Source: Vallicoccus soli
GTDB lineage: Bacteria; Actinomycetota; Actinomycetes; Motilibacterales; Motilibacteraceae
Assembly: GCF_003594885.1 (NCBI RefSeq)
Contig: NZ_QZEZ01000001.1
Location: 124,001-188,000, forward strand
Length of the DNA: 64,000 nucleotides
Direction: 5' to 3'
Under the pieces are notes generated by a model. That model saw only the letters and a list, made by a program, of their open reading frames with translations, was not told the origin of the DNA and ran no database searches. Made by a program: the position numbers and the translations under genes. Shown here one piece after another: positions 15,683 to 48,231 of this stretch (its first letter is position 1; the number at the start of each line of letters is the position of its first letter).

Positions 15683-15695
15683 TAGGAGACCGCCA

Positions 15696-16730: not shown

Positions 16731-16733
16731 GGC

Positions 16734-18167
16734 TCAGCGCTCCCGGTCGTAGCCCACGGGCCCGCCGACCCCCGTGCCCTCGTAGTCCGGGGCGGGCGCG
16801 GCAAGGATCTCGGCATCGGGCTTGTGCGTGCCCGCCTTCGCCGTCTTGGTGAGCAGGTAGATGTCGAGCCCGATGAGCCCGAGGTAGACCACCCACAGGC
16901 CGACGAGCCCGGTGAGCACCTCGGTCACGGAGTTGGCGCTGACGCCCTCGTCGACGGTGAGCAGGCCGTAGACCATGAACGGCTGGCGGCCCATCTCGGT
17001 CGTCATCCAGCCCGTGAAGTTGGCGATCCACGGCAGCGGCAGCAGGAGCACGAGGGCGCGGAGGTACCACCGGGTGCCGTCCAGGGCGCCGCGGCGGCGC
17101 CACCACAGGAACAGGCCCGCGAAGGCCGCGCCCATGAGCAGGACGCCGATGCCGACCATGATGCGGAACGACCAGTAGACCCAGGTGACCGGCGGGATGT
17201 AGTCGCGGCCCTCGCCGTAGAGCTCCTGGTACTCCTCGTTGAGCGAGTTCAGCCCGCGGTAGCTCGCGCTGAGGTTGTTCTCGGCGAGGATCGACCCGAC
17301 GTACGGGATCTCCAGGCTCCAGGTGTTCTCCCGGCGCTCCTCGTCGATGAGGGCGAGGGCGGACCAGGGGGCCGGGGAGCCCGAGTCCTCCCACTGGGCC
17401 TCCATCGCCGCGAACTTCATCGGCTGGTCCTCGCGGGCGTACTGCGCGGCGGTGTGCCCGCTGGCCGCCGAGAAGACCGTGCCGACGGCCGCGAAGACGA
17501 GCGCGAGGCGCAGCGCGCGGGAGAAGACGTCGACGTCGTGCTTGCGCAGCAGGTGGTAGGCGCTGATGGCCAGGACGAAGAAGCCGGCGACGGTCCAGGC
17601 GCTGCCCTGCACGTGCAGCGAGTAGAGCCACGCCTTGGGGTTGAAGACGACGGCGGAGAAGTCGGTGAGCAGCGCGCGGTCGCCCACCACCTCGTACCCG
17701 ACGGGGTGGTGCATCCAGGCGTTGGCGAGCACGATCCAGAACATGCTGATCTGGGTGCCGATGGCGACGAGCCAGATCGCGCCGAGGCGCATCCACGGCT
17801 TGAGCCGGTCCTTGCCGAACCACCACAGGCCGATGAACGTGCTCTCGAGGAAGAACGCCATGAGCACCTCGAGCGCCAGCGGCACGCCGAAGATGTTGCC
17901 GACGAACTCCGAGTACTCGCTCCAGTTCATGCCGAACTGGAACTCCTGCACGATGCCCGTCACGACGCCCACGGCGAAGTTGATGAGGAACAGGTGCCCG
18001 AAGAAGGAGCTCATCCGGTCGTAGACCGTGCTCCGCCCGCGCCGGAAGTACGCGAACGTCTCCATGACCGCGATGAGGAAGGCCAGTCCGACCGTCAGCG
18101 AGACGAAGAAGAAGTGGAAGATGCTCGTGGACGCGAACTGGAACCGGCTGAGATCGACCACGTCCAT
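16734..18167 (-). CDS. cydA: Cytochrome bd quinol oxidase subunit I
   Basis: The ATG at 18167, preceded by GGAGGAAGG, gives 477 residues. His18 in the first helix matches the high-spin heme ligand (His19 in E. coli); FFLESTFIGLWWFG covers the conserved Glu region; and the Q-loop side carries GRQPFMVYGLLTV. The usual GRQPW is GRQPF here. CydA holds hemes b558, b595 and d and oxidises quinol. The 5' leader contains a hairpin. The gene heads the cydABDC operon, which gives respiration at low O2. Confidence 0.95.
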   Translation of the reverse strand: MDVVDLSRFQFASTSIFHFFFVSLTVGLAFLIAVMETFAYFRRGRSTVYDRMSSFFGHLFLINFAVGVVTGIVQEFQFGMNWSEYSEFVGNIFGVPLALEVLMAFFLESTFIGLWWFGKDRLKPWMRLGAIWLVAIGTQISMFWIVLANAWMHHPVGYEVVGDRALLTDFSAVVFNPKAWLYSLHVQGSAWTVAGFFVLAISAYHLLRKHDVDVFSRALRLALVFAAVGTVFSAASGHTAAQYAREDQPMKFAAMEAQWEDSGSPAPWSALALIDEERRENTWSLEIPYVGSILAENNLSASYRGLNSLNEEYQELYGEGRDYIPPVTWVYWSFRIMVGIGVLLMGAAFAGLFLWWRRRGALDGTRWYLRALVLLLPLPWIANFTGWMTTEMGRQPFMVYGLLTVDEGVSANSVTEVLTGLVGLWVVYLGLIGLDIYLLTKTAKAGTHKPDAEILAAPAPDYEGTGVGGPVGYDRER

Positions 18168-18192
18168 GGGGTGCGGACCTTCCTCCGTACGG

Positions 18193-18225
18193 GGGACCGT
18201 GCCCGTCCAGCCTGGCACGGGTCCC
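18193..18225 (-). promoter_or_regulatory. Hairpin in the cydA leader
   Basis: GGGACC-GTGCC at 18193-18203 pairs with GGCAC-G-GGTCCC at 18214-18225, giving 11 bp with one bulged G and a 10-nt loop. It lies 26-58 nt upstream of cydA. It could be the terminator of the HPP gene upstream or a leader element of cydA; I see no Rex-type operator here. Confidence 0.5.
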
Positions 18226-18272
18226 CGCGGTCGGCAGGGGGACGTTCGTCACGCTGCCCCGGTACGGCGGGG

Positions 18273-18869
18273 TCAGTCGCCCCGGTCGGCGCTGGTGGAC
18301 CGCGTGGACCCGTTGCCGCGGGCACCGTCCCGGCGGTCGTCCCACAGGGGCTGCGGCGTGCCGAGCAGGCGGTTCAGCGCCACGCCGAGCACGGTGACGA
18401 GCACGACGGCGCCGCCCATCGCGACGAGCTCCGCGGCCGAGGTGAGGATGCCCAGGCTGACGATGAGCGTCGTCGCCCCGGCCGGCGGGTGCGGGGCGTC
18501 GAGGAGCTTGAGCACGAGGGCCGTGAGGGCGACGGAGAGCGCGGCCGCGCCCGTACGGGCCGCGGTCACGCCCTCCTGCACCACCGGCGGGTGGTCCGCG
18601 AGGCCGAAGGCGACGAGGCAGGCCGCACCGGCCAGCAGCGCCACGCCGTGCCCGAGGAGCGTGTTGCGCGGCGCGGCCGAGCGCTGCCGCGGCGTCTCGA
18701 AGAACAGCATCACGGTCGGGCCGAGGCTCGGGAAGAGCAGCGGCTGGCGCAGGAGCAGCGCGGCGAGCCCGGCCGCCGCCAGGACCGCGAGGCAGAGGAG
18801 GAAGGCGTACGCGCCGCCGCCGACCCGCCCGGCCCGCTCCTGCGCCGCCCCCAGCAGACCGCCGCTCAC
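18273..18869 (-). CDS. HPP-family integral membrane protein
   Basis: 198 residues with about four to five membrane helices and the family motif LDAPHPPAGATTLIVS near residue 130. HPP proteins in plants and cyanobacteria have been linked to nitrite transport in plastids; the bacterial role is less clear. GTG at 18869 overlaps the preceding gene by 4 bp. Its place after a nitrate-reductase-family molybdoenzyme agrees with a nitrogen-oxyanion role but does not prove it. Confidence 0.85.
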   Translation of the reverse strand: MSGGLLGAAQERAGRVGGGAYAFLLCLAVLAAAGLAALLLRQPLLFPSLGPTVMLFFETPRQRSAAPRNTLLGHGVALLAGAACLVAFGLADHPPVVQEGVTAARTGAAALSVALTALVLKLLDAPHPPAGATTLIVSLGILTSAAELVAMGGAVVLVTVLGVALNRLLGTPQPLWDDRRDGARGNGSTRSTSADRGD

Positions 18870-19333
18870 GTCGAGCCGCCGCCGGCGAGGAGCGCCTGCG
18901 GCGCGGCCTGCTTGATGCGGGTGTTGAGCCACCGCAGCTGCTGCGTCGTCTCCTGCTCGCACTCCGCGACGAGCTGGAGCAGCTCGCGGTCGCGCACGCC
19001 CTGCGCCGCCTGGCCCAGGACGGTCCAGGTGATGTCCACCAGGCTCGCGAGGAGGTAGAGGTCCTGCAGGTCGCGCAGCAGCCCCACGCCGCCGGAGCGG
19101 GTCTCGGACAGGGCTTGCGCGTGCAGCCGCTCGGGCTCCTCCTCACGCTGCTCGCCGTAGCGCTCGACGGCTGTCCGCAGGCGCTCGACGTGACCGTCGC
19201 ACCACTGGGCGAGGTGGTGGCAGAGGACGTGGACGTCGGGCTCGGCCGCGTGCCCGTCGGCGACCTGCCGGAAGGAGGCGGCGAGCGCCTGCGAGGCGCC
19301 GTGCTGCAGGCCGAGGTACGTCGCGAGGTGCAC
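18866..19333 (-). CDS. Hypothetical all-helical protein, His/Cys rich N-half
   Basis: 155 residues, predicted mostly alpha-helical with heptad-like Leu, and HVLCHHLAQWCDGH near residues 39-52. The pattern of acidic and His residues in long helices recalls ferritin-like or hemerythrin-like four-helix bundles, but I cannot match a family with confidence. It lies between the molybdopterin oxidoreductase and HPP genes with almost no spacing on either side, so it should act in the same process, perhaps as an accessory or metal protein. Confidence 0.7.
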   Translation of the reverse strand: MHLATYLGLQHGASQALAASFRQVADGHAAEPDVHVLCHHLAQWCDGHVERLRTAVERYGEQREEEPERLHAQALSETRSGGVGLLRDLQDLYLLASLVDITWTVLGQAAQGVRDRELLQLVAECEQETTQQLRWLNTRIKQAAPQALLAGGGST

Positions 19334-19334
19334 G

Positions 19335-21803
19335 TCAGCCCCTCCCGGTCCGGACGTCCTCGTCGACCCGGGCGTCCGGCCCGCCGACCGTCCGCGGCAC
19401 GCCGTCGGGCCGCGCCGGGGCGGAGGCCGTCGTCGTCGGGGCGGGCGAGGCGCCGGTGCCGGGCCGGACGCGCGTGATGCTCACGGCACCCACCTTGAAG
19501 AGCGGCTGCTTCGACACCGGGTCCCACTCGGTGAGGGTCATCTCGTTGGCCGCGCGGCCCGGCCCGCCGCCGGGCGATGACCCGTCGCCCGGGAGGTCCC
19601 AGTAGCCGAAGTGGAACGGCACGAAGGCCACGCCGTCGCGCCCCCTGCCGACCCGTGCCGGTGCCTCCACGGACCCGCGGGGCGAGGCGACCCGCACGAC
19701 GTCGCCCTCCTCGACGCCGAGCCGCTGCGCGTCGCCCACGGAGAGCTCGACCCACGCGCCCGGCGCCGCGCGGCGCAGCTGCCGGGACCGCCCGGTCTTG
19801 GTGCGGGTGTGGAAGTGGTAGACCGTCCGGCCCGTGGTCAGGGCGAAGGGGAACTCCTCGGACGGCGACTCCGGCGGCGGGACGTACGGTGCGCCCTTGA
19901 GGAAGGCGCGGCCGTCGGGGCGCTTCGCGCGGTAGGTCTGCTCCCCGATCGCCCCGCCGGTGAGCAGGTCGTGCCCGTACGACTCGCAGACGTCCGGCGC
20001 CGTGGGGAAGACGCCGTCGGCGTAGAGCCGGTCGGTGCCCTCCGGGCGCTCCGCCGGGGCTGGCCACGGGATGCCGCTGCCGCCGCGCAGGCGGTCGTAG
20101 GACAGGCCGGTGTAGTCGCAGGGGCGCCCGCGCGTGCACTCCCTCCAGGCCTCGAACACCTCCTCCGGGGAGGTCCAGGTGACGAGCGGCGCCCCGTCCT
20201 TGTCGCGGAAGCCCATGCGCCGGGCGTAGTCGAGGAAGATGTCGAGGTCGCTGCGCGCCTCGCCGGGCGGCTCGACGGCCTTGTCCGACAGGTGGACGGT
20301 CCGGTTCACGTTGGTGAACGTCCCCTGCTTCTCGCCCCAGAGTGCGGCCGGCAGGACGACGTCGGCGAAGCGGGCCGTCTCGGTGAGGAAGCCGTCCTGC
20401 ACGACCACGAACAGGCCCTCCCGCTGGAGGATCCGCCGGACCCTGGCCAGCTCGGGCAGGCTCACCGCGGGGTTGGTCGCGGAGATCCAGAGGAAGCGGA
20501 TCGACCCCTGCTCGCAGTAGCGCCAGATCTGCATCGCGTGGGTCGGCGGGGACCAGTGCGGGATGACGAGCGGGTCGACGTTCCACAGGTCCGCCAGCTC
20601 CTGGATGTGCTCGGCGTTGTCCCAGTTCCGGAACCCGGGGAGGTCGCCGTCGGCGCCGCACTCCCGGGTGTTCTGCGCCGTGGGCTGGCCGTTCATCTGC
20701 AGGACGCCGCAGCCCGGGCGGCCGAGCAGGCCGCGCAGCAGGTGCAGGTTGTTCACCTGGCAGGCCGCCGCCGTCGCCTGGTTCGACTGGTAGAAGCCCT
20801 GCAGCACGGTCGAGAGCACGCGCCCGCTGGTGCCGAAGACCTCGGCGGCGCGCCGGACGTCGGCGGCGGGGACCCCGCAGACCTCGGCCACGTGCTCCGG
20901 GGTGTACGGCTCGACCTCCCGCGCGAGCTCGTCGAGGCCCAGCGTGTGCGCGGCGACGTACTCCTCGTCGACCCAGCCGCGGTGGAGCACCTCCCGGACG
21001 AGCCCGTTCATGAGGGCCTGGTTCGTGCCCGGGAGGGGGGCGAGGTGCACGCCGCCGGTGGCGACGGCGGCCTCCGCGACCTTGGTGGTGCGGGGGTCGA
21101 CGGCGACGACCACCGGCGGGTCCACCCCCTCGATGCGGTCGAGCACGCGCATCCACAGGACCGTCTGCGTCTCGGCCATGTTGTGCCCGTAGAGGAAGAT
21201 CGCGTCGGTCGCCTCGATGTCGGTGTAGCTGCCCGGCTGGCCGTCCGAGCCGAAGCTCTCCTTCATGGCGGCGGCGGCCGTCGCCGTGCACAGGCGCGTG
21301 TTGCCGTCCATGTGCGGGGTTCCGAGGCCGGCCTTGCCGATGACGCCGAGGGCGTAGTACTCCTCGAGGAACAGCTGCCCGCTGGTGTAGAAGCCGTGGG
21401 TCAGCGCCCCCGCCTCGGTGGCCAGCAGGCGCTGGGACTCCGCGACGACCCGGCCCATCGCCGTGTCCCAGTCGGTCTCGACGAGCTCCCCGGAGCCGTC
21501 GCGCACCAGGGGCCGGGTCAGGCGGTCGCTGCGGTCCCACTGCCAGGAGCCGTACAGCCCCTTGGGCCCGAGCCGGCCCCGGTTGACGACGTCCACCGCC
21601 CGGCCGCGGACGCCGACCATCCGCCCGTCCTTGACGGCGATGTCGCACGCGCAGCCGTTGCTGCAGAGCACGCACGCCGACTGGACCCAGCGGTCCGGCT
21701 CGCCGGACCCGGGGTCGAGGTGGGTGTCGATGCGCACGGGCCACGGCTCGTCCCGGCCGTGCGGGGTGCGCGTGCCCCAGACGTCGGCGATGCGGTCGGT
21801 CAC
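19335..21803 (-). CDS. Molybdopterin oxidoreductase (Nas/Nap/Fdh family)
   Basis: GTG at 21803 follows GAGGAGG; 822 residues. The N-terminal Fe-S motif is CVLCSNGC (Cys44, 47, 51), but the expected fourth ligand in G-R-L-C-x-K-G reads GRLGPKG (Gly79). Cys172 in GNTRLC sits where Mo-coordinating Cys is found in assimilatory and periplasmic nitrate reductases. The C-terminal MopB domain, with TGRTVYHFHTRTKTGRS, is complete. No signal peptide is seen, so it is cytoplasmic. Nitrate reductase-like and formate dehydrogenase-like functions both remain open. It heads an operon-like run with the helical and HPP genes. Confidence 0.9.
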   Translation of the reverse strand: MTDRIADVWGTRTPHGRDEPWPVRIDTHLDPGSGEPDRWVQSACVLCSNGCACDIAVKDGRMVGVRGRAVDVVNRGRLGPKGLYGSWQWDRSDRLTRPLVRDGSGELVETDWDTAMGRVVAESQRLLATEAGALTHGFYTSGQLFLEEYYALGVIGKAGLGTPHMDGNTRLCTATAAAAMKESFGSDGQPGSYTDIEATDAIFLYGHNMAETQTVLWMRVLDRIEGVDPPVVVAVDPRTTKVAEAAVATGGVHLAPLPGTNQALMNGLVREVLHRGWVDEEYVAAHTLGLDELAREVEPYTPEHVAEVCGVPAADVRRAAEVFGTSGRVLSTVLQGFYQSNQATAAACQVNNLHLLRGLLGRPGCGVLQMNGQPTAQNTRECGADGDLPGFRNWDNAEHIQELADLWNVDPLVIPHWSPPTHAMQIWRYCEQGSIRFLWISATNPAVSLPELARVRRILQREGLFVVVQDGFLTETARFADVVLPAALWGEKQGTFTNVNRTVHLSDKAVEPPGEARSDLDIFLDYARRMGFRDKDGAPLVTWTSPEEVFEAWRECTRGRPCDYTGLSYDRLRGGSGIPWPAPAERPEGTDRLYADGVFPTAPDVCESYGHDLLTGGAIGEQTYRAKRPDGRAFLKGAPYVPPPESPSEEFPFALTTGRTVYHFHTRTKTGRSRQLRRAAPGAWVELSVGDAQRLGVEEGDVVRVASPRGSVEAPARVGRGRDGVAFVPFHFGYWDLPGDGSSPGGGPGRAANEMTLTEWDPVSKQPLFKVGAVSITRVRPGTGASPAPTTTASAPARPDGVPRTVGGPDARVDEDVRTGRG

Positions 21804-23845: not shown

Positions 23846-25054
23846 ATGAAGGCCGTCGTGTGGCACGGGCCCGGCGACATCAGGCTCGACGACGTGAGCG
23901 ACCCGACCATCCAGGAGCCGAACGACGCGGTCGTGCGGATCACGACGTCGGCGATCTGCGGCACCGACCTGCACATGGTCCGCGGCACCATGGCCGGGAT
24001 GGAGCCCGGCACGGTCCTCGGGCACGAGGCCGTCGGCGTGGTCGAGGAGACCGGGCCCGGGGTCCGGAACCTGCCGAAGGGCACCCGGGTCGTCATCGGC
24101 TCGACCGTCGGGTGCGGCTACTGCTCGTACTGCCGCTCGGGGACGTACTCGCAGTGCGACAACGCCAACCCCAACGGGCGCAACGCGGGCACCGCGTTCT
24201 TCGGCGGCCCGGGGCCGACCGGGCCGTTCGACGGCATGCAGGCGGAGTACGTGCGCGTGCCGTTCGCCAACGTGGGCGCGGTCCCGGTGCCCGAGGGCGT
24301 CACCGACGAGCAGGCGATCATGGTGTCGGACATCTTCCCCACCGCCTGGTTCGGCGGGCGGCTCGCGGAGGTCGGCCAGGGGGACACCGTGGCGGTGCTC
24401 GGGGCCGGTCCCGTCGGGCAGTTCGCGGTCGTGTCCGCGCTGCTGCAGGGCGCCGGGCGGGTCATCGTCGTCGACGGGGTGCCGAGCCGGCTCGAGGCGG
24501 CGCGGCGGCTCGGTGGCGAGGCCGTGGACTACAACGCCGAGGACCCCGTGCAGGTCCTGCAGGAGATCACCGGCGGCAGCGGCCCGGACCGGGTCATCGA
24601 CGCGGTCGGCGTCGACAGCGAGCGCCCGAAGACCGGCCCCGCCGCCGAGGGCGCCGAGCCCGCCGAGCAGGCGGAGCAGGAGCGCGCCCAGGTCGCGCCG
24701 GACAGCGGGCAGCGGGGCGAGCAGTGGGAGCCGGGCGACGGGCCCTCGCAGGCGGCGCTGTGGGCCGTGCAGGGGATCGCCAAGGCGGGGACGATCGGGG
24801 TCATCGGCGTCTACCCGCAGACCTACGCGACCTACCCGTTCGGCCAGGCGTTCATGAAGAACCTGACGATCCGCACCGGCAACTGCCCGCACCGGCGCTA
24901 CATCCCCGACCTGCTGCGGCTCGTCGCGAGCGGTGTCGTCGACCCGGCCACCGTGATGACGCAGCACGAGGGGGTCACGAACGCGATCGAGGCGTACGAG
25001 ACCTTCGACCGCCGCGAGGAGGGCTGGATCAAGACGGTCCTGAGCACGTCGTGA
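23846..25054 (+). CDS. Zinc-dependent alcohol/formaldehyde dehydrogenase (MDR family)
   Basis: 402 residues, ATG with GGGAG upstream. Catalytic-zinc residues Cys38 and His60-Glu61 are present, as are the structural-zinc cysteines 90, 93, 96 and 104. The Rossmann motif GAGPVGQF lies near residue 190. An insertion of about 45 residues rich in Glu, Ala and Gln (from about residue 257) is characteristic of glutathione-independent formaldehyde dehydrogenase-like proteins. It probably oxidises an aldehyde or alcohol with NAD+. A SigB-like promoter precedes it and a 4-bp GTGA overlap couples it to the next gene. Confidence 0.92.
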   Translation: MKAVVWHGPGDIRLDDVSDPTIQEPNDAVVRITTSAICGTDLHMVRGTMAGMEPGTVLGHEAVGVVEETGPGVRNLPKGTRVVIGSTVGCGYCSYCRSGTYSQCDNANPNGRNAGTAFFGGPGPTGPFDGMQAEYVRVPFANVGAVPVPEGVTDEQAIMVSDIFPTAWFGGRLAEVGQGDTVAVLGAGPVGQFAVVSALLQGAGRVIVVDGVPSRLEAARRLGGEAVDYNAEDPVQVLQEITGGSGPDRVIDAVGVDSERPKTGPAAEGAEPAEQAEQERAQVAPDSGQRGEQWEPGDGPSQAALWAVQGIAKAGTIGVIGVYPQTYATYPFGQAFMKNLTIRTGNCPHRRYIPDLLRLVASGVVDPATVMTQHEGVTNAIEAYETFDRREEGWIKTVLSTS

Positions 25055-25509
25055 GGGCGCTGCTCGTCGGGGCGGCCGCCGGGGCGGCCGGCACGACGGC
25101 GCTCGACGCGGTGACCTACGTCGACATGGCGCTCCGCGGGCGACCCGCCAGCTCGACGCCGGAGCAGTCCGTGGAGAGGCTGGCGGACAGGGCGCACGTG
25201 CGGGTCCCGGGTGAGGGGGAGCAGCAGGACGCCCGGGTCTCGGGGCTGGGTCCGCTGCTCGGCATCGCCAGCGGCGTCGGCGTGGGCGTGCTGTACGGCG
25301 CCGTGCGCGACCTGGGCTGGCGCCCCTCCGTGCTCGTCGGCGGGCTGGCCACGGCGGCTGCCGCGATGGTGGGCACCAACGGACCCATGGCCGTGCTCGG
25401 CGTCTCGGACCCCCGGACGTGGAGCGCCTCGTCCTGGGTGTCTGACGTCGTCCCGCACCTCGCGTACGGCCTCGTCACCGCGGCGACGGCGGCAGCGGCG
25501 GAGCGCTGA
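25051..25509 (+). CDS. Small membrane protein of unknown function
   Basis: 152 residues; GTG overlaps the dehydrogenase stop by 4 bp. Hydrophobic segments occur at about 2-18, 72-90, 95-113 and 130-150, giving three to four membrane helices with a hydrophilic loop at 28-65. The family is uncharacterised as far as I can tell. Coupling to the dehydrogenase suggests shared stress expression. Confidence 0.75.
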   Translation: MRALLVGAAAGAAGTTALDAVTYVDMALRGRPASSTPEQSVERLADRAHVRVPGEGEQQDARVSGLGPLLGIASGVGVGVLYGAVRDLGWRPSVLVGGLATAAAAMVGTNGPMAVLGVSDPRTWSASSWVSDVVPHLAYGLVTAATAAAAER

Positions 25510-26852: not shown

Positions 26853-27371
26853 ATGACCGGTGGACGACGCACGGCGCTGCGCGCCGCGACGGGGGCGCTC
26901 GCCGCCCTGGCCGTCGCGGGCTGCGGCGCGGGGACCTGGGGGCAGGAGCAGGAGAGCGCCTCGACCACGCCCGACGTGGCCGAGGTCGACGACGACCGGG
27001 GGGTGCTGCTGCGCGGGGCGTACCTGCAGGAGCCGCCGGACGGCGCGCGGGCGTGGGCGGAGGGCAGCGACGTGGCGGTGCAGGGCCGGCTGCTCAACGA
27101 GGCCGCGGCCCGCGACGCCGTGCTGTCCGCCTCCTCGCCGGCGGCGGCGGGCGTCGACCTCGTCGACCCGTCCGGCGCGGTCGTCGGCTCGCTCCCGCTG
27201 CCGCCGGGCGAGCCGGTCGACCTGCGTCCCGGCGGCCCGACGCTGGTGCTCCGCGACGTGCAGCGGGAGCTGCCCGAGGGCGAGCAGGTCCAGCTCACGC
27301 TCGTGCTGCGCGAGGCCGGCGAGCTGCCCGCGACCCTCCAGGTGCTCATCGAGGACCCGGCGGCCGGCTGA
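26853..27371 (+). CDS. Lipoprotein with PCu(A)C-like fold, copper ligands absent
   Basis: 172 residues with a lipobox AVAGCG (Cys24). The body (about 45-168) has the beta-strand order of PCu(A)C/DUF461 copper chaperones: VQGRLLNEAAARDAVLSASS, then VGSLPLPPGEPVDLRPGG and VQLTLVLREAG. The His and Met residues that bind Cu(I) in true PCu(A)C are absent. It ends 66 bp before the complex I-like cluster. It may be a structural or substrate-binding relative that has lost metal binding. Confidence 0.75.
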   Translation: MTGGRRTALRAATGALAALAVAGCGAGTWGQEQESASTTPDVAEVDDDRGVLLRGAYLQEPPDGARAWAEGSDVAVQGRLLNEAAARDAVLSASSPAAAGVDLVDPSGAVVGSLPLPPGEPVDLRPGGPTLVLRDVQRELPEGEQVQLTLVLREAGELPATLQVLIEDPAAG

Positions 27372-27437: not shown

Positions 27438-27788
27438 ATGGGCGAGTACGCGGGTGCCCTCGGCCTCCTCCTCGTGGCGCTGGCCGGGGTCGGCGGGCTC
27501 TACCTCGTGCACCGTGCCACCGCGCTGCGCCCGGACGCCGTCGAGGCGCTGCCGTTCCTGTCCGGCTGGGAGCCGGAGCAGCACGCGCTGTCCCGCTTCC
27601 ACGTGCGCTGGTACCCCGCGACGCTCGTCTTCCTGGCCTTCGACGTGGAGATGCTCTTCATGTACCCGTGGGCCGTGGTGGTCGCGGAGGTCGGCGCGTC
27701 CGCCGTCGTCGAGATGTTCCTCTTCCTCGGCGTCCTGTTCGTCCCCGTGGTGTGGGCCTGGCGCGAGGGGGCGCTGCGGTGGGTCTGA
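27438..27788 (+). CDS. nuoA: NuoA-like subunit of complex I-like cluster
   Basis: 116 residues, three membrane helices. The conserved block RFHVRWYPATLVFLAFDVEM with the Asp/Glu pair of helix 2 is intact, followed by FMYPWAVV. The loop motif Y-E-C-G of ordinary NuoA/ND3, whose Cys reports the active/deactive switch, reads FLSG here. ATG at 27438 after GGAGG. The next gene overlaps by 10 bp. In complex I this subunit lies at the quinone-channel junction. Confidence 0.9.
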   Translation: MGEYAGALGLLLVALAGVGGLYLVHRATALRPDAVEALPFLSGWEPEQHALSRFHVRWYPATLVFLAFDVEMLFMYPWAVVVAEVGASAVVEMFLFLGVLFVPVVWAWREGALRWV

Positions 27789-28867
27789 GCCTGGACCGCC
27801 TCGCCCTCGGCGGCACGCGCGTGCTCGTCGCCGAGGCGCCCGGGGCCCGGGTCGTCCGCGCCGCCGTGGAGCGCGCGGCCCTGGGCCGCGGCTGGGGGCT
27901 GGCCTCGTCGCCGGCGCAGGCCGGGGTGCTCGTCGTCTGCGGCGCGCCGCAGCAGCGGCTGCAGGAGGCGGTCGACCGGGTCTGGGACCAGCTGCCGGGG
28001 CCCCGGGCCCGGGTGGGGGTGCTCGTGCCGCAGGACGCCGCCCCCGCGCTCGAGCGCGCCGCGGGGCACCTCGCCGACCGGGCCGAGCAGCGGCGCGACG
28101 CGGACGCGCGCGGCGCCGGCCCGGGCGCCGGCGGCGAGGAGGGCGACGACGGGGGGCACGGGGACGACGGGGACATGAGCGACATGGGCATGGCGCCCGC
28201 CGGGGTGCCGCTCGCCGGCGGCGACGAGGACCGGGACGGGCTGGAGATGGACGTCCTGCAGGTGCCGCTGGGGCCCGTCCTGCCGGCGTGGCCCGCGGGG
28301 CTCGTGCTGCGCTGCGCGCTGCACGGGGACGTCGTGGCGTCGGCGGAGGTCGAGGTGCTCGCGGGGAGCGGCCCGGGCGGCGGCAGCGCCGCTTCCCGGG
28401 CCGCCGACGGCGCGGCGCGGCTGCTCGCCCTGGCCGGCTGGGACGACGCCGCCGCCGCAGCCCGGCGGGCGCGCGACGCGCTGCTCGACGGGGACGACGC
28501 GCGCGCCGGGCACGTCCTGGAGGGCCTGCGGCGGCGCGTCGCCCGCTCCCGGGCCCTGCGCTGGCAGCTGCGGGGCCTGGGCCGGCTCGACGGGGCGGCG
28601 CTCGCCGAGCACGGCCTGCCCGGCCGGCTCGGCGGCGACGTGCACGACCGCCTGCTCGCGCTGCTCGACGCGGCCGCGGGCGACCCGCGGTATACGGGCG
28701 AGGGGGACCCCGACTCCGCCGCTGCTGCCGACGCCGCTGCGGCCGACGCTGCCGTCGTCGCGGCCCTCCCGGCGCTCGTCGCCGGGCTCGACCTCGCCGC
28801 CGCGCGCCTCGTCGTCGCGAGCCTGGACCCGGAGCCCGTACCGGAGCGGCGGGTGGCCCGTGGCTGA
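27779..28867 (+). CDS. Degenerate NuoB/NuoD-like fused protein with acidic, Met/His linker
   Basis: 362 residues in the position of the hydrophilic complex I genes. Residues about 43-82 (SSPAQAGVLVVCGAP, then AVDRVWDQLPGPRARV) follow NuoB around its V-A-G-T strand and helix, but the N2 cluster Cys motifs (CC and later GC, GCPP) are missing. Residues about 160-193 (VPLGPVLPAWPAGLVLR and following) echo the NuoD start P-L-G-P-Q-H-P-x-x-H-G-V-L-R, and 262-285 (RGLGRLDGAALAEHGLPG) echo its R-G-x-G motif. Between lies an acidic linker (about 110-155) with GGHGDDGDMSDMGM. Only two Cys occur, so no N2 cluster is possible. It overlaps nuoA by 10 bp and nuoH by 8 bp. The relation is my reading of weak similarity. 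Confidence 0.6.
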   Translation: MGLSLDRLALGGTRVLVAEAPGARVVRAAVERAALGRGWGLASSPAQAGVLVVCGAPQQRLQEAVDRVWDQLPGPRARVGVLVPQDAAPALERAAGHLADRAEQRRDADARGAGPGAGGEEGDDGGHGDDGDMSDMGMAPAGVPLAGGDEDRDGLEMDVLQVPLGPVLPAWPAGLVLRCALHGDVVASAEVEVLAGSGPGGGSAASRAADGAARLLALAGWDDAAAAARRARDALLDGDDARAGHVLEGLRRRVARSRALRWQLRGLGRLDGAALAEHGLPGRLGGDVHDRLLALLDAAAGDPRYTGEGDPDSAAAADAAAADAAVVAALPALVAGLDLAAARLVVASLDPEPVPERRVARG

Positions 28868-29801
28868 GGCGGCGGTGGAGACGGCCGCGGCGCCGTGGGC
28901 GCTGCTGGCGGCCGTGCTGCTGGGCGCGCTGGCGCTCGGGGCCGCGTGCCTCGACGGCGTCCTCGCGGCGTGCGCCGAGGGGGTCCCGGCACGGGTGGGG
29001 CTGCGCGCCCCCGTGGCGCGCACGGCCGCGCTGCTGCGCCAGCGCCGGCGCACGACCGTGGCGGCGGACGGGCTGCTGCAGCGGGCCGGTGGCGGCGGCC
29101 TCGTCGTCGCCGCCCTGCTCATGGTCGCGGTCGTCCCGCTGGGCGGGCACGCCCTCGCCGACCTCCCCGCCGGCGTCGTGTGGTTCAACGCGATGGACGT
29201 CCTCGTCTGGGCGCTCGTCTGGCTGGCCGGCTGGGGCGGGGACTCCGCCCTGGCCCTCGTCGGCGGCTACCGCTTCCTCGCCCAGGCCCTCGCGTACGAG
29301 CTCCCGCTCATGTTCGCCCTCACGGCCCCGGCGGTCGCCGCGGGCAGCCTCCGGGTCGCCGACGTGGCCGCGGCCCAGGACGGGCTGTGGCACGTGGTGT
29401 GGATGCCGGTCGCCTTCGCGGTGTACTGCGCCGGCGTCGTCGCCTTCAGCGTGCAGGGGCCCTTCGCGCCGCCGGCCGGCCTCGACCTCGCGGGGGGCGT
29501 CCTCACCGAGGCCTCCGGCGCCGACCGGCTCCTGCTGCAGGCCGGTCGGTACGCCCTGCTCGCCGCGGGGGCGGCGTTCGCGGTGCCGCTCTTCCTCGGC
29601 GGCGGCGCGGGGCCGCTGCTCCCGGGCTGGGCCTGGGTCCTGCTCAAGGCAGGGCTGCTGCTCGCCGCCCTCGTCGTCCTGCGCCGCCGCGTCCCGGCGG
29701 TGCGCCCCGACCGCTTCCTCGAGGCGGGCTGGCTGGTGCTCCTGCCCGCCGTGCTGCTGCAGCTGCTCGTCGTCGCCGTCGTCGTCGTGGGGAGGGGCTG
29801 A
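28860..29801 (+). CDS. nuoH: NuoH-like membrane subunit with altered quinone-loop motif
   Basis: 313 residues and about eight membrane helices. The helix segment GGYRFLAQALAYELPL with its conserved Glu identifies the family. The loop that in ordinary NuoH reads A-E-T-N-R-x-P-F-D-L-x-E-x-E-x-E-L-V and shapes the quinone site is replaced by FSVQGPFAPPAGLDLAGG (about 196-213), losing nearly all of its acidic residues. GTG start overlapping the previous gene by 8 bp. Confidence 0.82.
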   Translation: MAEAAVETAAAPWALLAAVLLGALALGAACLDGVLAACAEGVPARVGLRAPVARTAALLRQRRRTTVAADGLLQRAGGGGLVVAALLMVAVVPLGGHALADLPAGVVWFNAMDVLVWALVWLAGWGGDSALALVGGYRFLAQALAYELPLMFALTAPAVAAGSLRVADVAAAQDGLWHVVWMPVAFAVYCAGVVAFSVQGPFAPPAGLDLAGGVLTEASGADRLLLQAGRYALLAAGAAFAVPLFLGGGAGPLLPGWAWVLLKAGLLLAALVVLRRRVPAVRPDRFLEAGWLVLLPAVLLQLLVVAVVVVGRG

Positions 29802-29803
29802 GC

Positions 29804-30385
29804 GTGCCGACCGACCTGGGCGCCGCCGTGGGCGTCGCGTTCTGGGGGCTCGCCGTCGTGGCGGTCGCCGCCGGCGTCGCCGTCTTCCGCGTCGACTCGA
29901 TGGCCCGGGCGACGTACGCGCTCGCGGTCTCGTTCGTCGCCGTCGGCGCGGCGCTGCTCCTCGTCGGGCTCGACTACGTCGGGCTCGTCGTCGTCCTCAT
30001 GATGGTCATGGAGATGGCCGTCATGGGCGTCTACATGGTCATGCTCATGGGGATGAACCCGGCCCTCATGCCGATGAGCATGGTGCACTCGGGCCGGCGC
30101 GCGGCCGTGCTCGCCGCCGGGACCTTCGTCGTCCTCGCCGCCGGGGCGCTGCTCGTGCCCTGGCCCGAGCGCCGCGGCGCCCCCGCCCCCGACACGGTCG
30201 CCGCGCTCGGCACCGCGCTCATGGAGTCGACGATGCTCGTGATGCTCGTCGTCAGCCCGGTGATGGTCGCGACGATCGTGGCCGGCGTGGCGCTCGCCGT
30301 GCCGCGCGGGCGCTACGACCGGCTCGGCGACGACCTGCGCCGGCGCCCCGCGGACGACCCCCAGCCGGGCGGGGTGGGCCGGTGA
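29804..30385 (+). CDS. nuoJ: NuoJ-like membrane subunit with a Met-rich helix
   Basis: 193 residues, five hydrophobic helices. YALAVSFVAVGAALLLVGLD matches NuoJ helix 2. In place of the normal helix 3 (Y-V-G-A-I-x-V-L-F-L-F-V-V-M), residues 66-93 contain 12 methionines, including MVMEMAVMGVYMVMLMGM. NuoJ helix 3 carries the pi-bulge that transmits coupling in complex I, so this substitution should matter. GTG start 2 bp after nuoH; the stop overlaps nuoK as GTGA. Confidence 0.85.
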   Translation: MPTDLGAAVGVAFWGLAVVAVAAGVAVFRVDSMARATYALAVSFVAVGAALLLVGLDYVGLVVVLMMVMEMAVMGVYMVMLMGMNPALMPMSMVHSGRRAAVLAAGTFVVLAAGALLVPWPERRGAPAPDTVAALGTALMESTMLVMLVVSPVMVATIVAGVALAVPRGRYDRLGDDLRRRPADDPQPGGVGR

Positions 30386-30684
30386 CCCTCGAGGCCGTGC
30401 TCGTCGTGGCCGCCGCGCTCGTCGCCGTGGGCCTCTACGGCGCGCTGTCGCAGCAGGTCGTCGTCATGGTGATGATGGGCCTCGAGCTCATGCTCAACGG
30501 CGTCATCCTCGCCGCGGGGGCGGTGTGGTGGTTCCTCGCGCCCGACCCGACCGGGCAGGTGCTGCTCCTCGTCGTCGTCGCCGCCATGACCGTGGAGATG
30601 GCCATGGGGTTCGCCGTGGCCACGCTGCTGCACCGCTCCCGCGGCACGGACATGACCGACATGGCCGCGGACCTGCGGCGGTGA
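30382..30684 (+). CDS. nuoK: NuoK-like membrane subunit
   Basis: 100 residues, the standard NuoK length, three helices. Glu35 (MMGLELMLNG) and Glu72 (MTVEMAMGFAVATLL) match the two membrane glutamates essential in E. coli NuoK (36 and 72). The C-terminal tail RGTDMTDMAADLRR adds a D-M-x-D-M motif like that in the linker of the NuoB/D-like protein. Four-base overlaps join it to nuoJ and nuoL. Confidence 0.92.
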   Translation: MTLEAVLVVAAALVAVGLYGALSQQVVVMVMMGLELMLNGVILAAGAVWWFLAPDPTGQVLLLVVVAAMTVEMAMGFAVATLLHRSRGTDMTDMAADLRR

Positions 30685-32600
30685 GCGCTCTCCCGCTCTG
30701 GGGCCTCGTCCTGCTGCCGGCGGTCGCGGGGGCGGCGCTGGCGCTCGCCGGGCCGCGGGCCGAGCGGGTCGCCGTGCCCGTGTCGCTGGTGACGGCGACC
30801 GCCACGGCCGTGCTCGCCGGCGTCGCCGCGGTCCAGCGGCCGTCGCTGTCGGTGCCGTTCGTCGCGGGGGCGCCGTTCGCCCTCGCCGTCGACGCGCTCG
30901 CGGCCCTCGTGCTGCCGGCGGTGGCGGTGGTCACGCTCCTCGTGCTCGTCTTCGCGGCGGGGGACGTGCACGCCTCGCGGGCGCGGTTCCACGGCCTGGT
31001 GCTGCTCTTCGCCGCCGCGGTCGGCGTCACGGCGACCGCGACCACCCTGCCCGCGCTCCTGCTGGCGTGGGAGGTGATGGGGGCGACCTCGTACGCCCTC
31101 ATCGGCTTCCCCTGGTCCGACCGGGCGCACGTCGCCGGCGGCGAGGCGGCGTTCGTCACGACCCGCACGGCCGACCTCGGCCTCTACGCCGCGGCGGCGG
31201 CCGGGCTGGCGGGCGGCGCGGGGCTGCGCCTCGACGACCTCGCGTCCGCCGACGGGGCCTGGCAGGACCTGGCGGCGGCGGGCGTCCTCGTCGCGGCGCT
31301 GGGCAAGGCGGCGCAGCTCCCGTTCTCCGCCTGGCTCTCGCGGGCCATGCTGGGGCCGAGCCCGGTGAGCGCCCTCCTGCACTCGGCGGCGATGGTCGCC
31401 ATGGGCGGCTACCTGCTGCTGAGGGCCGCGCCCCTGCTGGAGGCGACGGGCTGGGCCGCGACCGCGGCGGCGTGGGCGGGTGCCGCGACGGCGCTGCTCC
31501 TCGGCGTCGTCGCGCTCGCCCAGCGGGACCTCAAGCAGCTGCTCGCGGCGTCCACCGCGGCGCAGCTCGGCTTCGTCGTCCTCGCGGCGGGCCTCGGCGC
31601 GGTGGCGGGCGGGGCGGCGCACCTCGTCGCCCACGCGGCCACCAAGGCGCTGCTGTTCCTCGCGGCGGGCGCCTGGCTCTCCGCCCTGGGCACGCGGCGC
31701 CTGGAGGCCCTGCGGGGTGCGGGGCGCCGGTGGGTGCTCGTCGGCGCGACGGCGGCGGTGGGCGCCCTCTCCCTCGCCGGGGTCGCGCCGCTCGCGCTCT
31801 GGGCGACGAAGGACGCGGTGCTCGCGGCCGCCCGGGAGGAGGCGCCCGCCCTGTACGCCGTCGGCCTGGCCGCCGCGGCCCTCTCGGCGGCGTACGCGGG
31901 CAAGGTCCTGCTCGTCGTGTGGCGGCCCGCTCCCGACGGCGTCGAGGACGGCTGGGACGACGAGCGCCCCGGGACGCGCCACGTCGGCCGCCTGGAGCAG
32001 GCGCCGCTGGTCGTGCTCGCGCTGGGGGCGGCGCTGCTCGGCGCGCTCGCGCTGCCGCCGGCCGGGGACGCGCTGCGCCGCGCCCTGGGCGGGTCGACGC
32101 CCGCCGCCGGCGCCGCCGAGCTGGCCCTGTCCGCGGTGCTGGCGCTGGCCGCCGTCGCCGCGGTGGCGCGGTGGGGCTCCCCGGAGCCGCGCTGGGCGCT
32201 CGACTGGCTGGGGCTCGAGCGGGCCACCCGGGCCGTCGCCGTGCGCCCCGTGCTGGCCCTCGCCGAGGGGCTGGCGCGGTTCGACGACCGCGTGCTCGAC
32301 CGGGCGGTGCACGGCGGCGCGGGCGCGGCGCTCGCGGCCGCGCGGGCGCTCGCGGGCCTGGACGACCGCCGGGTGGACGGCGCCGTCCGGGCCGCGTCCC
32401 GGGGCGGCCTGCTGCTCGGGGCCGCGGCCGCGCGGGCGGACACCGGGGGCGTGGACCGGGCCGTCGAGGCGACCGCCGGGGGCGCGCGGCGGGCCGGGCG
32501 GCTCGCCCGCCGCCCGCAGACCGGCCTCCTGCACGAGTACTACGCCCAGGCCGCCGCGGTGCTCGCGGCCGGTGTCCTCCTCCTCGTCCTCGTGAGGTGA
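30681..32600 (+). CDS. nuoL: NuoL-like antiporter subunit
   Basis: 639 residues. The helix 5 Glu is kept (Glu131 in LLLAWEVMGATSYALIG), as are the core Lys region ALGKAAQLPFSAWLSRAM and PSPVSALLHSAAMV. The C-terminal part (about 530-625) contains three amphipathic repeats (DDRVLDRAVHG, DDRRVDGAVRA, DTGGVDRAVEA) before a last membrane helix and corresponds to the lateral helix region. It is the only one of the three antiporter-like subunits here that clearly retains Glu in helix 5. Confidence 0.92.
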   Translation: MSALPLWGLVLLPAVAGAALALAGPRAERVAVPVSLVTATATAVLAGVAAVQRPSLSVPFVAGAPFALAVDALAALVLPAVAVVTLLVLVFAAGDVHASRARFHGLVLLFAAAVGVTATATTLPALLLAWEVMGATSYALIGFPWSDRAHVAGGEAAFVTTRTADLGLYAAAAAGLAGGAGLRLDDLASADGAWQDLAAAGVLVAALGKAAQLPFSAWLSRAMLGPSPVSALLHSAAMVAMGGYLLLRAAPLLEATGWAATAAAWAGAATALLLGVVALAQRDLKQLLAASTAAQLGFVVLAAGLGAVAGGAAHLVAHAATKALLFLAAGAWLSALGTRRLEALRGAGRRWVLVGATAAVGALSLAGVAPLALWATKDAVLAAAREEAPALYAVGLAAAALSAAYAGKVLLVVWRPAPDGVEDGWDDERPGTRHVGRLEQAPLVVLALGAALLGALALPPAGDALRRALGGSTPAAGAAELALSAVLALAAVAAVARWGSPEPRWALDWLGLERATRAVAVRPVLALAEGLARFDDRVLDRAVHGGAGAALAAARALAGLDDRRVDGAVRAASRGGLLLGAAAARADTGGVDRAVEATAGGARRAGRLARRPQTGLLHEYYAQAAAVLAAGVLLLVLVR

Positions 32601-34093
32601 GCGTGCTCAGCGTCCTCGTCGTCCTGCCCCTCGTCGCCGCGGCGGTGCTCGCCGCGGCCCCCGCGCTGCCCGACCGGGCCGCGCGCCGGGGCTGGGTCGC
32701 CGTCAGCGGCGTCGAGGTGGCCCTCGTGGCGGCGCTCTGGCTCGGCTACGAGGACCCCGGCCCCCGGCGGCTGGCGCACGAGGAGCAGGTGCCGTGGATC
32801 CCGGGCGTGGGCAGCAGCTACCACGTCGGCGTCGACGGGCTGAGCCTGCCGCTGCTCGCGCTGACCTGCGTGGTGTTCGCCGCGTGCGCGGTGCACGCGC
32901 TGCGCGAGGAGCGCCGGCCCCGCGTGCAGGCGGCGCTCATGCTGTTCCTCCAGGCGACCTGCCTCGGGGTCTTCGCGGCCCAGGACCTCGTCCTGTTCTT
33001 CGTGTTCTTCGACCTGTCGATCGTCGGGATGGACTTCCTCATCGCCGGCTGGGGCCACGGCGACGCCGCCCGCTCGGCGCTGAAGTTCTTCCTCTACACG
33101 TTCCTGGGCTCGCTCGCCCTGCTGCTCGGGTTCATCGGCCTCTACGCCGCGTCCGAGCCGCGCACCTTCGACATGGTCGCGCTGGCGCAGGACCCCCCGC
33201 TGCAGGACGAGCCCCTGGTGGGCGGCCTCGTGCTCGCGGCACTGCTCGTCGGCCTGGCGGTCAAGACGCCCACGTTCCCCTTCCACACCTGGCTGCCGCC
33301 CGCCCACACCGACGCGCCGGCGGTGGGGTCGGCCGTGCTGGCGGGCGTGCTGCTCAAGATGGGCACGTACGGCTTCGTGCGCATCGCGATGCCGATGCTC
33401 CCGGCCGCCTGGCGCGACTGGGCGTGGGTCGTCGTGGCCGTGGGGGTCGTCTCGGTCCTGCACGGCGCCCTCGTCGCGCTCGCGCAGACCGACCTCAAGC
33501 GCATGGTCGCCTACACGTCCGTGAACCACATGGGCTACGTCGTCCTGGCCGTCGGCGCCGCGGGCGTCGTCGCGGGCTCGGACGCCGAGGCCCGCGAGGT
33601 GGCCGTGACGGGGGCGGTCGTGCAGATGGTGAGCCACGGCCTCATCACCGGCGCCCTCTTCCTGCTGGCCGGCACGCTGCACGACCGGGCGGGCACCTAC
33701 GACCTCGACGCGTACGGGGGCCTCGGCACGGTCGCGCCGCGCTTCGCCGTGCTGCTGTCGGTGGGGGCCTTCGCCTCGCTCGGGCTGCCCGGCTTCAGCG
33801 GCTTCATCGCGGAGTTCCAGGTGTTCGCGGGCAGCGTCGCCACGGTGCCCTGGACCGCGGTCGCCCTGCTCGGGATCCTCGTGACCGCCGCGCTGTTCCT
33901 GCGGGCCCTGCAGCGCCTGCTCGTCGGCGAGGTGCGCGGGCGCTCGGCGGGCTTCCGCGACCTGCGCCCCTCCGAGGTGTGGTCGGTCGCCCCGCTGCTG
34001 CTCCTGGCCCTCGTCCTCGGCATCGTGCCGCGCCCGCTGCTCGACGTCGTGGAGCCCGCCGCCGGGGCCGTGGTCGGCCTCGTCGGGCGGTAG
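32597..34093 (+). CDS. nuoM: NuoM-like antiporter subunit, helix 5 Glu replaced by Asp
   Basis: 498 residues, about 14 helices. Lys223 (AVKTPTFPFHTWLPPAHTDA) and Lys254 (VLLKMGTYGF) match the proton-path lysines of E. coli NuoM (234 and 265). The helix 5 Glu (Glu144 in E. coli, in W-E-M-M-L-V-P-M) aligns without gaps with Asp139 in FDLSIVGMDFLIAGWGH. Starts GTG with a 4-bp overlap to nuoL. Confidence 0.92.
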   Translation: MSVLSVLVVLPLVAAAVLAAAPALPDRAARRGWVAVSGVEVALVAALWLGYEDPGPRRLAHEEQVPWIPGVGSSYHVGVDGLSLPLLALTCVVFAACAVHALREERRPRVQAALMLFLQATCLGVFAAQDLVLFFVFFDLSIVGMDFLIAGWGHGDAARSALKFFLYTFLGSLALLLGFIGLYAASEPRTFDMVALAQDPPLQDEPLVGGLVLAALLVGLAVKTPTFPFHTWLPPAHTDAPAVGSAVLAGVLLKMGTYGFVRIAMPMLPAAWRDWAWVVVAVGVVSVLHGALVALAQTDLKRMVAYTSVNHMGYVVLAVGAAGVVAGSDAEAREVAVTGAVVQMVSHGLITGALFLLAGTLHDRAGTYDLDAYGGLGTVAPRFAVLLSVGAFASLGLPGFSGFIAEFQVFAGSVATVPWTAVALLGILVTAALFLRALQRLLVGEVRGRSAGFRDLRPSEVWSVAPLLLLALVLGIVPRPLLDVVEPAAGAVVGLVGR

Positions 34094-34095
34094 GC

Positions 34096-35508
34096 GTGGA
34101 GCCGCTCGCCCTGCTGCCCGAGGCGCTGCTCCTCGGCGGGGCGCTCGCCGCCCTCCTGGCCGGCTCCTTCCTGCCGCGGGAGCGGCAGTGGGTCGCCCGC
34201 CTCGTCGCGGCCGCCGCGCTCCTCGCGTCGTCGGTGGCGTCGGCTGTCGCCCTCGCCGGCCCCGCGCGGACGGTGTTCGAGGGGACGTACGCCGTCGACA
34301 CCGCCACGGGAGCGGCCCGTCTCGTCGTGGCCCTCGCGACGCTCCTCGTGCTGGGCCTGGGGGTCGACGAGCTGGCGGGGGACCGGCAGGAGAGCGAGGC
34401 GTACTGCCTGCTCCTGCTCTCCGCGCTCGGGGCGGTCGTGGTCGCCGGCGCCGACGACCTGCTCGTCCTCGCCGTCGGCTTCCTCCTCGCGAGCATCCCG
34501 CTCTACGCGCTGGTCGGACTCGCCCGCACGCCCGCGGCGGCGGAGGCCGCGCTGAAGACGTACCTGCTCGGTGCCCTCTTCGGCATCACCATGCTCCTCG
34601 GGGTCACCGTCCTCTACGGCGCGACCGGCACCACCTCGTACGCCCTCCTCGGCGAGCGCTTGCCCGGTGCGCCGGACGCGGCGGTCGCGCTGGGCGCGGT
34701 CGCCGTCGTGGGTGGCCTCATGTTCAAGGCCGGCGGCGTGCCGGGCCACTTCTGGGTGCCCGACGCCGCGCAGGGCGCGGGGGTCGCGGCCGCGGCCTTC
34801 GCCACCACCGTGCCGAAGGTGGGCGCCCTCGTGGCCGTGCTCCGGCTCGTCGACGTGCTGGCGCCCGTGGCCGGCGTACGCCTCCTCGTCGGCCTCCTCG
34901 CCGCGGCCGGGATGGTGCTGGGGAACCTCGCGGCGCTCGGGCAGACCGACCCGCGCCGGCTGCTGGGCTGGTCGACCGTCGCCCAGGTCGGCTACCTGCT
35001 CGTCCCGGTCGCCGTGGTCGGCCGCTCGGACCTCGCCGTCCCGTCGCTGCTGCTCTACCTCGCCGCGTACGCCGTCACGAACCTCGCCGCCTTCGCGGTC
35101 GTCGCAGCGCTGCCCGCGCGGCGGGACCTCGCCGCGTACCGGGGCCTCGCCGGCGCGCGCCCTGGGCTGGCCGCGGCGCTGCTCGTCGCCCTGCTGGGTC
35201 TGCTCGGGACGCCGCCGACGGCGGTGTTCGCGGGGAAGCTCACGACGGCGACCGCGGCGTGGGACGGCGGCGAGCCCTGGCTCGCGGTCGTCGTGGTCGT
35301 CACCACGCTGCTCAGCCTCGGCTACCACCTGCGGTGGTTCGTCCCGGCGTACCGGGCGGGGGAGCCGCCGGAGCGCGCGGACCGCGGTGCCTTCGTCCCG
35401 CGGCCGCGGGCCGCGGCGGCCGCCGCCGTGGCGGCGGTGGCGAGCGTGGCGCTGGGGGTCGCGGCCGGCCTCGCCTGGGCCGTCGCCGACGGCCCGCTCG
35501 TGCGCTGA
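34096..35508 (+). CDS. nuoN: NuoN-like antiporter subunit, helix 5 Glu absent
   Basis: 470 residues. The lysines of the path are kept: Lys154 (EAALKTYLLGA), the Lys of MFKAGGVPGHFWVPDAAQG, and TTVPKVGAL. The helix 5 motif, normally G-I-E-L-x-S-L-P-L with an essential Glu, reads GFLLASIPLYALVGL, so the Glu is Leu130. Starts at GTG 2 bp after nuoM and ends the cluster before a hairpin. Confidence 0.9.
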   Translation: MEPLALLPEALLLGGALAALLAGSFLPRERQWVARLVAAAALLASSVASAVALAGPARTVFEGTYAVDTATGAARLVVALATLLVLGLGVDELAGDRQESEAYCLLLLSALGAVVVAGADDLLVLAVGFLLASIPLYALVGLARTPAAAEAALKTYLLGALFGITMLLGVTVLYGATGTTSYALLGERLPGAPDAAVALGAVAVVGGLMFKAGGVPGHFWVPDAAQGAGVAAAAFATTVPKVGALVAVLRLVDVLAPVAGVRLLVGLLAAAGMVLGNLAALGQTDPRRLLGWSTVAQVGYLLVPVAVVGRSDLAVPSLLLYLAAYAVTNLAAFAVVAALPARRDLAAYRGLAGARPGLAAALLVALLGLLGTPPTAVFAGKLTTATAAWDGGEPWLAVVVVVTTLLSLGYHLRWFVPAYRAGEPPERADRGAFVPRPRAAAAAAVAAVASVALGVAAGLAWAVADGPLVR

Positions 35509-48153: not shown

Positions 48154-48231
48154 GCGGGGTTCCTCTCGTGCTCCCCGGCGCGGCGGGCGCCGGGGCAGGG
48201 CGGGGCGACGGCGGACCGGGCGTCCGTCGGC

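Follow-up and report, generated by a model that had tools for sequence, protein, structure and literature searches.

Few membrane machines have been studied as much as complex I, the 14-subunit NDH-1 or Nuo enzyme, and the coupling of its head to the distant proton channels is still under debate. Complex I-like enzymes of 11 subunits without the N module occur, for example, in Desulfitobacterium hafniense (PMC11238625), the cofactor-free Mrp cation/proton antiporters are built from NuoL/M/N- and NuoK-like subunits (PMC7419157; PMC9568556), and in the DAB2 CO2 hydration complex a NuoL-like subunit has been proposed to use the proton motive force to power a non-redox reaction at a cytoplasmic metal-site subunit (PMC13144422). 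Here we analyse a stretch of 64,000 nucleotides of the actinomycete Vallicoccus soli (contig NZ_QZEZ01000001.1, positions 124,001 to 188,000; hereafter the window), in which an eight-gene operon, located at 27438-35508 on the forward strand, encodes a further member of this superfamily in the tightly packed order A-BD-H-J-K-L-M-N, where BD is a fusion of a NuoB- and a NuoD-like part. With a confidence slightly better than even, we read the eight-gene system as a complex I derivative that serves copper homeostasis, in which ion flow is coupled to the movement of Cu(I).

With complex I the system shares NuoA, H, J, K, L, M and N in canonical order, the NuoB and NuoD folds found in BD by structure matches, and the proton-channel Lys, Glu and His residues of NuoL and NuoM together with the channel Glu residues of NuoK, although NuoN departs at E133 and H305. 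On the other hand, NuoC, E, F, G and I, a flavin mononucleotide subunit and iron-sulfur (Fe-S) ligands are missing, B and D are fused and shortened, the tandem Cys and the other Cys ligands of cluster N2 are not found in BD, the quinone site reads GPxLPxWPxGL in BD and has mostly lost the acids of NuoH, and methionine-rich NuoJ, NuoK and NuoA, a metal-binding insert and the location in copper islands set the system apart. The 11-subunit enzymes are likewise without NuoE, F and G, and related 11-gene clusters from other actinomycete classes are placed by the tree immediately beside, not within, the eight-gene clade, but they possess separate NuoB, C, D and I, while the eight-gene system has no NuoC, no NuoI and no N2 ligands. 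Mrp, equally a cofactor-free ion machine with homologous NuoL/M/N- and NuoK-like subunits, has the gene set MrpA-G without NuoA, NuoH and a NuoB/NuoD head, whereas A, H and BD are present here and the subunits score highest to Nuo models. DAB2 provides a precedent for a NuoL-like subunit that is proposed to drive a non-redox reaction, but its DabA is carbonic anhydrase-like and it has one NuoL-like subunit, DabB, while the soluble subunit of the eight-gene system is NuoB/NuoD-like; homology to BD is not claimed. CopA P1B ATPases, CusCBA and CopB-type resistance proteins reside in the same islands and share heavy metal-binding HMBD or His/Met-rich motifs with the BD proteins of Rubrobacter type and others, but they are ATP-driven or resistance-nodulation-division pumps and none is assembled from subunits of complex I. 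By descent the eight-gene system is thus a member of the complex I superfamily, yet it has neither the redox features of complex I and the 11-subunit enzymes nor the gene sets of Mrp and DAB. No description of an eight-gene system in copper islands was found in the open-access papers searched. If it does move a transition metal instead of performing redox or inorganic-carbon chemistry, it would, to our knowledge, be the first relative of complex I to do so.

A conserved operon with a cluster-free head

Pfam assigns seven of the eight operon proteins, A, H, J, K, L, M and N, all above cut-off. The genes overlap by 10 nt (A/BD), 8 nt (BD/H) and 4 nt each (J/K, K/L, L/M), while gaps of 2 nt separate H from J and M from N. 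An earlier note, made from the letters of the window, had described NuoA, a NuoB/NuoD-like fusion, H, J, K, L, M and N without NuoC, E, F, G and I; frames and coordinates, Pfam and structure comparison bear out this gene set, and the five subunits are indeed absent from the operon as well as from every complete relative of the eight-gene clade. That they lie elsewhere in the same operon was ruled out, as none is found in the flanks of the relatives and the canonical nuo cluster of the genome sits on a separate contig (C9).

The sequence match of BD, the sole hydrophilic subunit, to NuoB is weak (NCBIfam TIGR01957, E 3e-4, residues 41-77). In an AlphaFold2 model built with 47 aligned sequences (mean predicted local distance difference test, pLDDT, 87), residues 155-356 adopt the NuoD fold, with chain 8e9h_D of mycobacterial complex I (Z 15.7, root-mean-square deviation 3.0, 193 residues aligned) ranking first among many chains of complex I and formate hydrogenlyase. 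Residues 1-112, modelled alone with a pLDDT of 92, match NuoB-type chains such as 6u8y_J (Z 9.3) and 8qby_B (Z 9.0), and Foldseek likewise gives NuoB-type matches with a probability of 1.00; as the best row for an unrelated structure reaches Z 8.7, compared to Z 8-9.3 for NuoB-type chains, the assignment of this predicted fold to NuoB rests on the consistent structure list together with the sequence match. The relation to NuoB and NuoD that the earlier note had proposed for a check by AlphaFold and structure comparison is accordingly found for both halves.

The BD protein of the window possesses two Cys, as had been counted before, and a tandem CC within the first 60 residues is present in 0 of 90 BD proteins, so that the usual assembly of cluster N2 is impossible and the earlier claim of a head without N2, which misses the tandem Cys and the N2 ligands, holds. 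In the alignment, GPxLPxWPxGL stands where NuoD has the quinone motif GPQHPxxHG, and the quinone-site His is therefore missing from BD. No signal or membrane segment is evident in BD, which presumably resides on the cytosolic side.

One-step searches with BD, which has diverged too far for them, matched only 8 of 198 class genomes, and NuoJ was therefore used as the query. The scan of genome contigs recovered at least 497 relatives, from which 80 loci were retained, all of them actinobacterial and including Mycobacterium, Nocardioides, Arthrobacter, Kocuria, Micromonospora and others. Among 246 genomes drawn evenly from the phylum the matches fall into tiers, and two more distant ones, G2 and the Rubrobacter-type G3, carry the same eight genes. 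BD is encoded by 90 of the 90 loci scanned, and the order A-BD-H-J-K-L-M-N is found in all complete loci, with gaps at contig ends only, which is the conserved synteny that the earlier note had asked about. In a tree of K, M and N taken together all eight-gene systems form one clade (Shimodaira-Hasegawa-like approximate likelihood ratio test 100) with G3 beside G1 and G2 and the 11-subunit clusters outside. The clade spans Actinomycetes, Rubrobacteria, Alpha- and Gammaproteobacteria; plasmid relatives from Sulfitobacter, Paracoccus, Roseovarius, Thioclava and Nitratireductor have a NuoJ 68-71% identical to that of Rubrobacter, while the modules on Halomonas and Roseivivax plasmids are more distant.

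In other classes of the phylum, four loci (L166, L167, L168 and L170) harbour second complexes of 11 subunits (A-B-C-D-H-I-J-K-L-M-N), three of them with an extra nuoN- or nuoLMN-like stretch nearby, and part of these branch near the eight-gene clade.

Of the overall reading in the earlier note, the complex I-like membrane arm with a cluster-free NuoB/NuoD remnant, the uncoupling from NADH and the conservation as a unit are supported, but the description of the head as vestigial has to be given up, as BD is conserved across phyla and carries a metal-binding segment in many members.

Association with copper islands

The genes in the flanks of 86 actinomycete loci were grouped by a clustering that used no prior labels, with family names verified in Pfam, and compared with 39 control regions, each 19 kb long, taken from seven host genomes. 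DUF305, multicopper oxidases and P1B ATPases make up the commonest clusters. Next come a DUF305-like membrane protein, a two-component system, CsoR, ArsR and DUF326, with CopZ and F510_1955-type proteins behind them. Loci versus controls, the gene counts are 43 to 0 for DUF305 (p 8.5e-13), 23 to 0 for multicopper oxidases, 23 to 1 for P1B ATPases, 15 to 0 for CopZ and 11 to 0 for CsoR, while response regulators and ABC ATPases showed no enrichment in the same comparison. At least two copper markers are present at 42 of the 86 loci and at none of the 39 controls (p 1.9e-9), and all nine Rubrobacter-type loci encode a CopA-like P1B ATPase, CsoR and CopZ upstream, in one case (L158) with an overlap of 4 nt between CopZ and nuoA; the linkage to copper genes exceeds chance, as would befit a component of copper resistance.

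The module also travels with copper genes on plasmids, beside a multicopper oxidase in Arthrobacter FB24, CopZ and a P1B ATPase on Curtobacterium pC1a, a P1B ATPase and an HMA protein on Mycobacterium avium pMAH135, CusA in Sulfitobacter, CopB and a copper-resistance oxidase in Halomonas, and CueR and a P1B ATPase in Roseivivax, and near copper genes on plasmids of Rubrobacter. The copper link of the family is strong, and a copper-related role in the family is highly probable. If true, an unsuspected part would be added to mobile copper resistance, including that of M. avium and of plasmids of marine bacteria, while the annotation of these proteins as NADH-quinone oxidoreductase subunits misleads metabolic reconstructions.

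As a separate observation, a potassium channel-like protein of the Ion_trans_2 family lies beside the module at about 11 of the 86 loci and at 0 of the 39 controls (for instance L159, 4953-5843, and L071, 9276-10148).

Loss of the electron input

The loss of the acidic quinone loop of NuoH noted before is real in the window and its close relatives, where D213, E216 and E218 are gone and E241 is replaced by Arg, though E157 and E228 stay; E241 is Arg in nearly all clade members checked, and the Rubrobacter-type NuoH retains part of the quinone loop. The missing YECG loop of NuoA, on the other hand, which had been taken for a further mark of lost function, was rejected as such, as the functional NuoA of Escherichia coli reads PFESG and is also without YECG.

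These losses bear on two readings in which electrons would still be used. A pump in which copper, alternating between Cu(I) and Cu(II) at BD with a quinone or another acceptor, powers proton translocation, so that energy is gained or toxic Cu(I) is removed by oxidizing it, can draw on the complex I architecture, on the multicopper oxidases often nearby and on the partial quinone loop of the Rubrobacter-type NuoH, but is improbable, with the cluster ligands and the quinone-site His of NuoD missing, NuoH E241 replaced by Arg almost throughout and no other redox domain in the operon. Electron transfer from Cu(I) to menaquinone is, moreover, uphill according to the established redox values, which counts against such a pump. 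Quite improbable is also a copper-proof spare, an Fe-S-free relative that sustains membrane energetics when copper poisons Fe-S enzymes and that is fed by an unnamed partner. While the loss of all Fe-S parts with retention of the membrane arm, the location in copper islands and the idea of another driving or gating partner, already voiced in the earlier note, speak for it, the flanks hold no conserved redox partner and the quinone site is degraded, so that electrons could hardly enter.

Methionines, metal-binding segments and proton channels

Methionine accounts for 9.7% of NuoJ compared to 2.1% of the canonical NuoJ of the same genome, for 10.0 versus 3.0% of NuoK and for 5.2 versus 2.5% of NuoA, while its content in L, M, N and H is not clearly raised over the canonical counterparts. 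Across 32 clade members that represent the three groups, Met occupies eleven internal NuoJ columns at 94-100%, and ten of these mostly hold other residues in seven canonical and 11-subunit sequences. Most of the near-invariant columns fall into the third NuoJ helix, which in complex I helps to gate the passage between head and channels. A strict stripe along one face is not claimed for all NuoJ methionines, as the test for a single helix face gave a modest resultant of 0.36 and only the subset 67, 71, 74, 78 and 82 shares one face.

The linkers between the NuoB and NuoD halves of BD contain MDHG-type repeats with a median of 20.9% His plus Met, and 63 of 79 linkers reach at least 15%, compared to 5% in the N-terminal core. 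At the same place, Rubrobacter and Sulfitobacter BD proteins carry one or two CPMHPE...CPKCGM units, which in the Rubrobacter proteins tested match the HMBD domain (Pfam PF19335, E 1e-13 to 2e-27), and the NCBI label of this type is ʻheavy metal-binding domain-containing proteinʼ. The NuoJ tail, not BD, bears the His-rich stretch in Halomonas and Roseivivax. The earlier note had overlooked the copper islands, the His/Met or HMBD insert of BD and the methionines of NuoJ, NuoK and NuoA.

The channel residues checked in NuoL and NuoM are conserved, with Asp for NuoM E144 in the window and Gln for NuoL H334 in some relatives; NuoK E36 and E72 are conserved across the clade members checked, NuoA D79 and E81 are conserved with Glu for D79 in part of G2, and NuoN has lost E133 and H305 clade-wide. 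The loss of the Fe-S and quinone sites and the short linker of the window could also be taken as signs of a functionless, degenerate complex I copy that hitch-hikes in the islands. This is extremely improbable, as the eight genes stand in fixed order in all complete loci and channel and methionine residues are invariant over deep divergence and across phyla, by which a reading as decay is contradicted.

A putative Cu(I)-moving machine

In the mechanism that we propose, the hydrophilic arm has exchanged its redox and quinone portions for a single BD head, which bears a soft-metal-binding insert in many members, with the A-H-J-K-L-M-N arm retained. BD would pick up Cu(I) from the cytosol, probably handed over by CopZ in loci that also encode it, and Cu(I) would pass from BD to the A/J/K region, where the conserved methionines take the place of the usual residues of the central gating helix, while proton flow via the intact L and M channels would drive the export of the metal. 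This presumes that the eight proteins assemble as one complex, that Cu(I) is the probable ligand or substrate, that the proton flow in L and M may be coupled to metal movement via A/J/K, and that the His/Met-poor member of the window would work like its relatives. Export is the favoured direction over import because the islands are resistance islands. In this specific form, as an exporter of Cu(I) or Ag(I) of about eight subunits, driven by the proton motive force, with a methionine-lined metal path at the E-channel region and a metal-loading head, the proposal is tentative and its chances fall somewhat short of even. As the channels are kept and the electron input is swapped for apparent metal binding, the system offers a cofactor-free case in which to test coupling.

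Several observations weigh against copper movement by the eight-gene system. The linker of the window BD is His/Met-poor, with one His and three Met in 50 residues, and the metal-binding insert is thus not universal; His/Met motifs of this kind are, furthermore, usual in extracytoplasmic copper proteins, while BD is without an evident signal or membrane segment. The only copper gene adjacent to the operon in the window encodes the PCuAC protein and ends 66 bp before nuoA on the same strand, and CsoR and DUF305 are about 34 kb and further off in this genome. Approximately 43% of the actinomycete loci have no copper marker in the flank, some flanks ending at contig ends, the controls were positioned by hand and represent no more than seven genomes, and a P1B ATPase often shares the island, which lets a second exporter seem redundant.

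An alternative is an ion machine that is gated by copper without moving it, an Mrp-like antiporter or a controlled leak of H+ (or Na+/K+) switched by copper on BD, which would protect pH or membrane potential under copper stress. The relationship of L, M, N and K to Mrp subunits, the intact channel residues of L and M, the position of the metal-binding segment in a low-confidence linker that could be a sensor and the shift of His-rich segments between BD and NuoJ are consistent with such gating. As it leaves the clade-wide methionines within the helices of NuoJ, NuoK and NuoA unexplained, we consider it unlikely, though worth keeping in view beside the coupling of ion flow to Cu(I) movement.

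Features of the locus and neighbouring genes

Table 1. Genes and protein segments at the eight-gene locus, in window coordinates.
Feature	Coordinates	Strand	Evidence and remarks
PCuAC-domain copper chaperone (putative lipoprotein)	26853..27371	+	Pfam PF04314 E 1.2e-12, above cut-off
NuoA homologue, 116 aa	27438..27788	+	PF00507 E 9.6e-26; equivalents of D79/E81 retained
BD, NuoB/NuoD fusion, 362 aa, sole hydrophilic subunit	27779..28867	+	AlphaFold2 pLDDT 87, structure matches
BD, NuoB-like half, without tandem Cys or N2 ligands	27779..28114	+	AlphaFold2 pLDDT 92; Z 8-9.3; nuoB_fam E 3e-4
BD linker, low pLDDT, short and His/Met-poor (long and His/Met-rich in most relatives); includes conserved DMGMAPAGVPLA stretch	28115..28228	+	
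BD, NuoD-like half, quinone-site His missing	28229..28849	+	8e9h_D Z 15.7, 193 aa; alignment
NuoH homologue	28860..29801	+	PF00146 E 2e-41
NuoJ homologue, Met-rich	29804..30385	+	PF00499 E 7.9e-10; Met content
NuoJ residues 66-93, methionine-rich, includes Glu70; third transmembrane helix and following loop	29999..30082	+	
NuoK homologue	30382..30684	+	PF00420 E 6e-13; both channel Glu kept, clade-specific Met beside each
NuoL homologue, proton-channel residues intact	30681..32600	+	PF00361 E 4.4e-39
NuoM homologue, proton-channel residues intact (E144 = Asp)	32597..34093	+	TIGR01972, above cut-off
NuoN homologue, E133 to Leu, H305 to Gln	34096..35508	+	PF00361 E 2.4e-50

Away from the full nuo cluster, a lone and canonical-looking second nuoD (456-codon frame; L005, 6597-7964; contig C4, about 206600-207350) adjoins an Mrp antiporter operon in the genome of the window. 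This orphan nuoD2 was set aside as a partner of the eight-gene system, as it lies on another contig. Similar small membrane protein genes are found near both, at 25051-25509 of the window for the eight-gene module and at 7691-8854 of L005 for the orphan nuoD2.

Further metal-related genes in the window, recognized by eye, are a His/Cys-rich metallothionein-like open reading frame adjoining an ArsR-type regulator (47833-48602, reverse strand) and a His-rich membrane protein with a small partner, similar to the CbtA/CbtB cobalt transporter (53233-54290, reverse strand). At 12372-21803 on the reverse strand, cydCD-like genes, cydB, cydA and the genes for an HPP-family protein and a molybdopterin oxidoreductase are grouped. 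On the Halomonas KO116 plasmid, an HPP gene and fdhF lie a few kb from the eight-gene module, a likeness to the window that may be due to chance.

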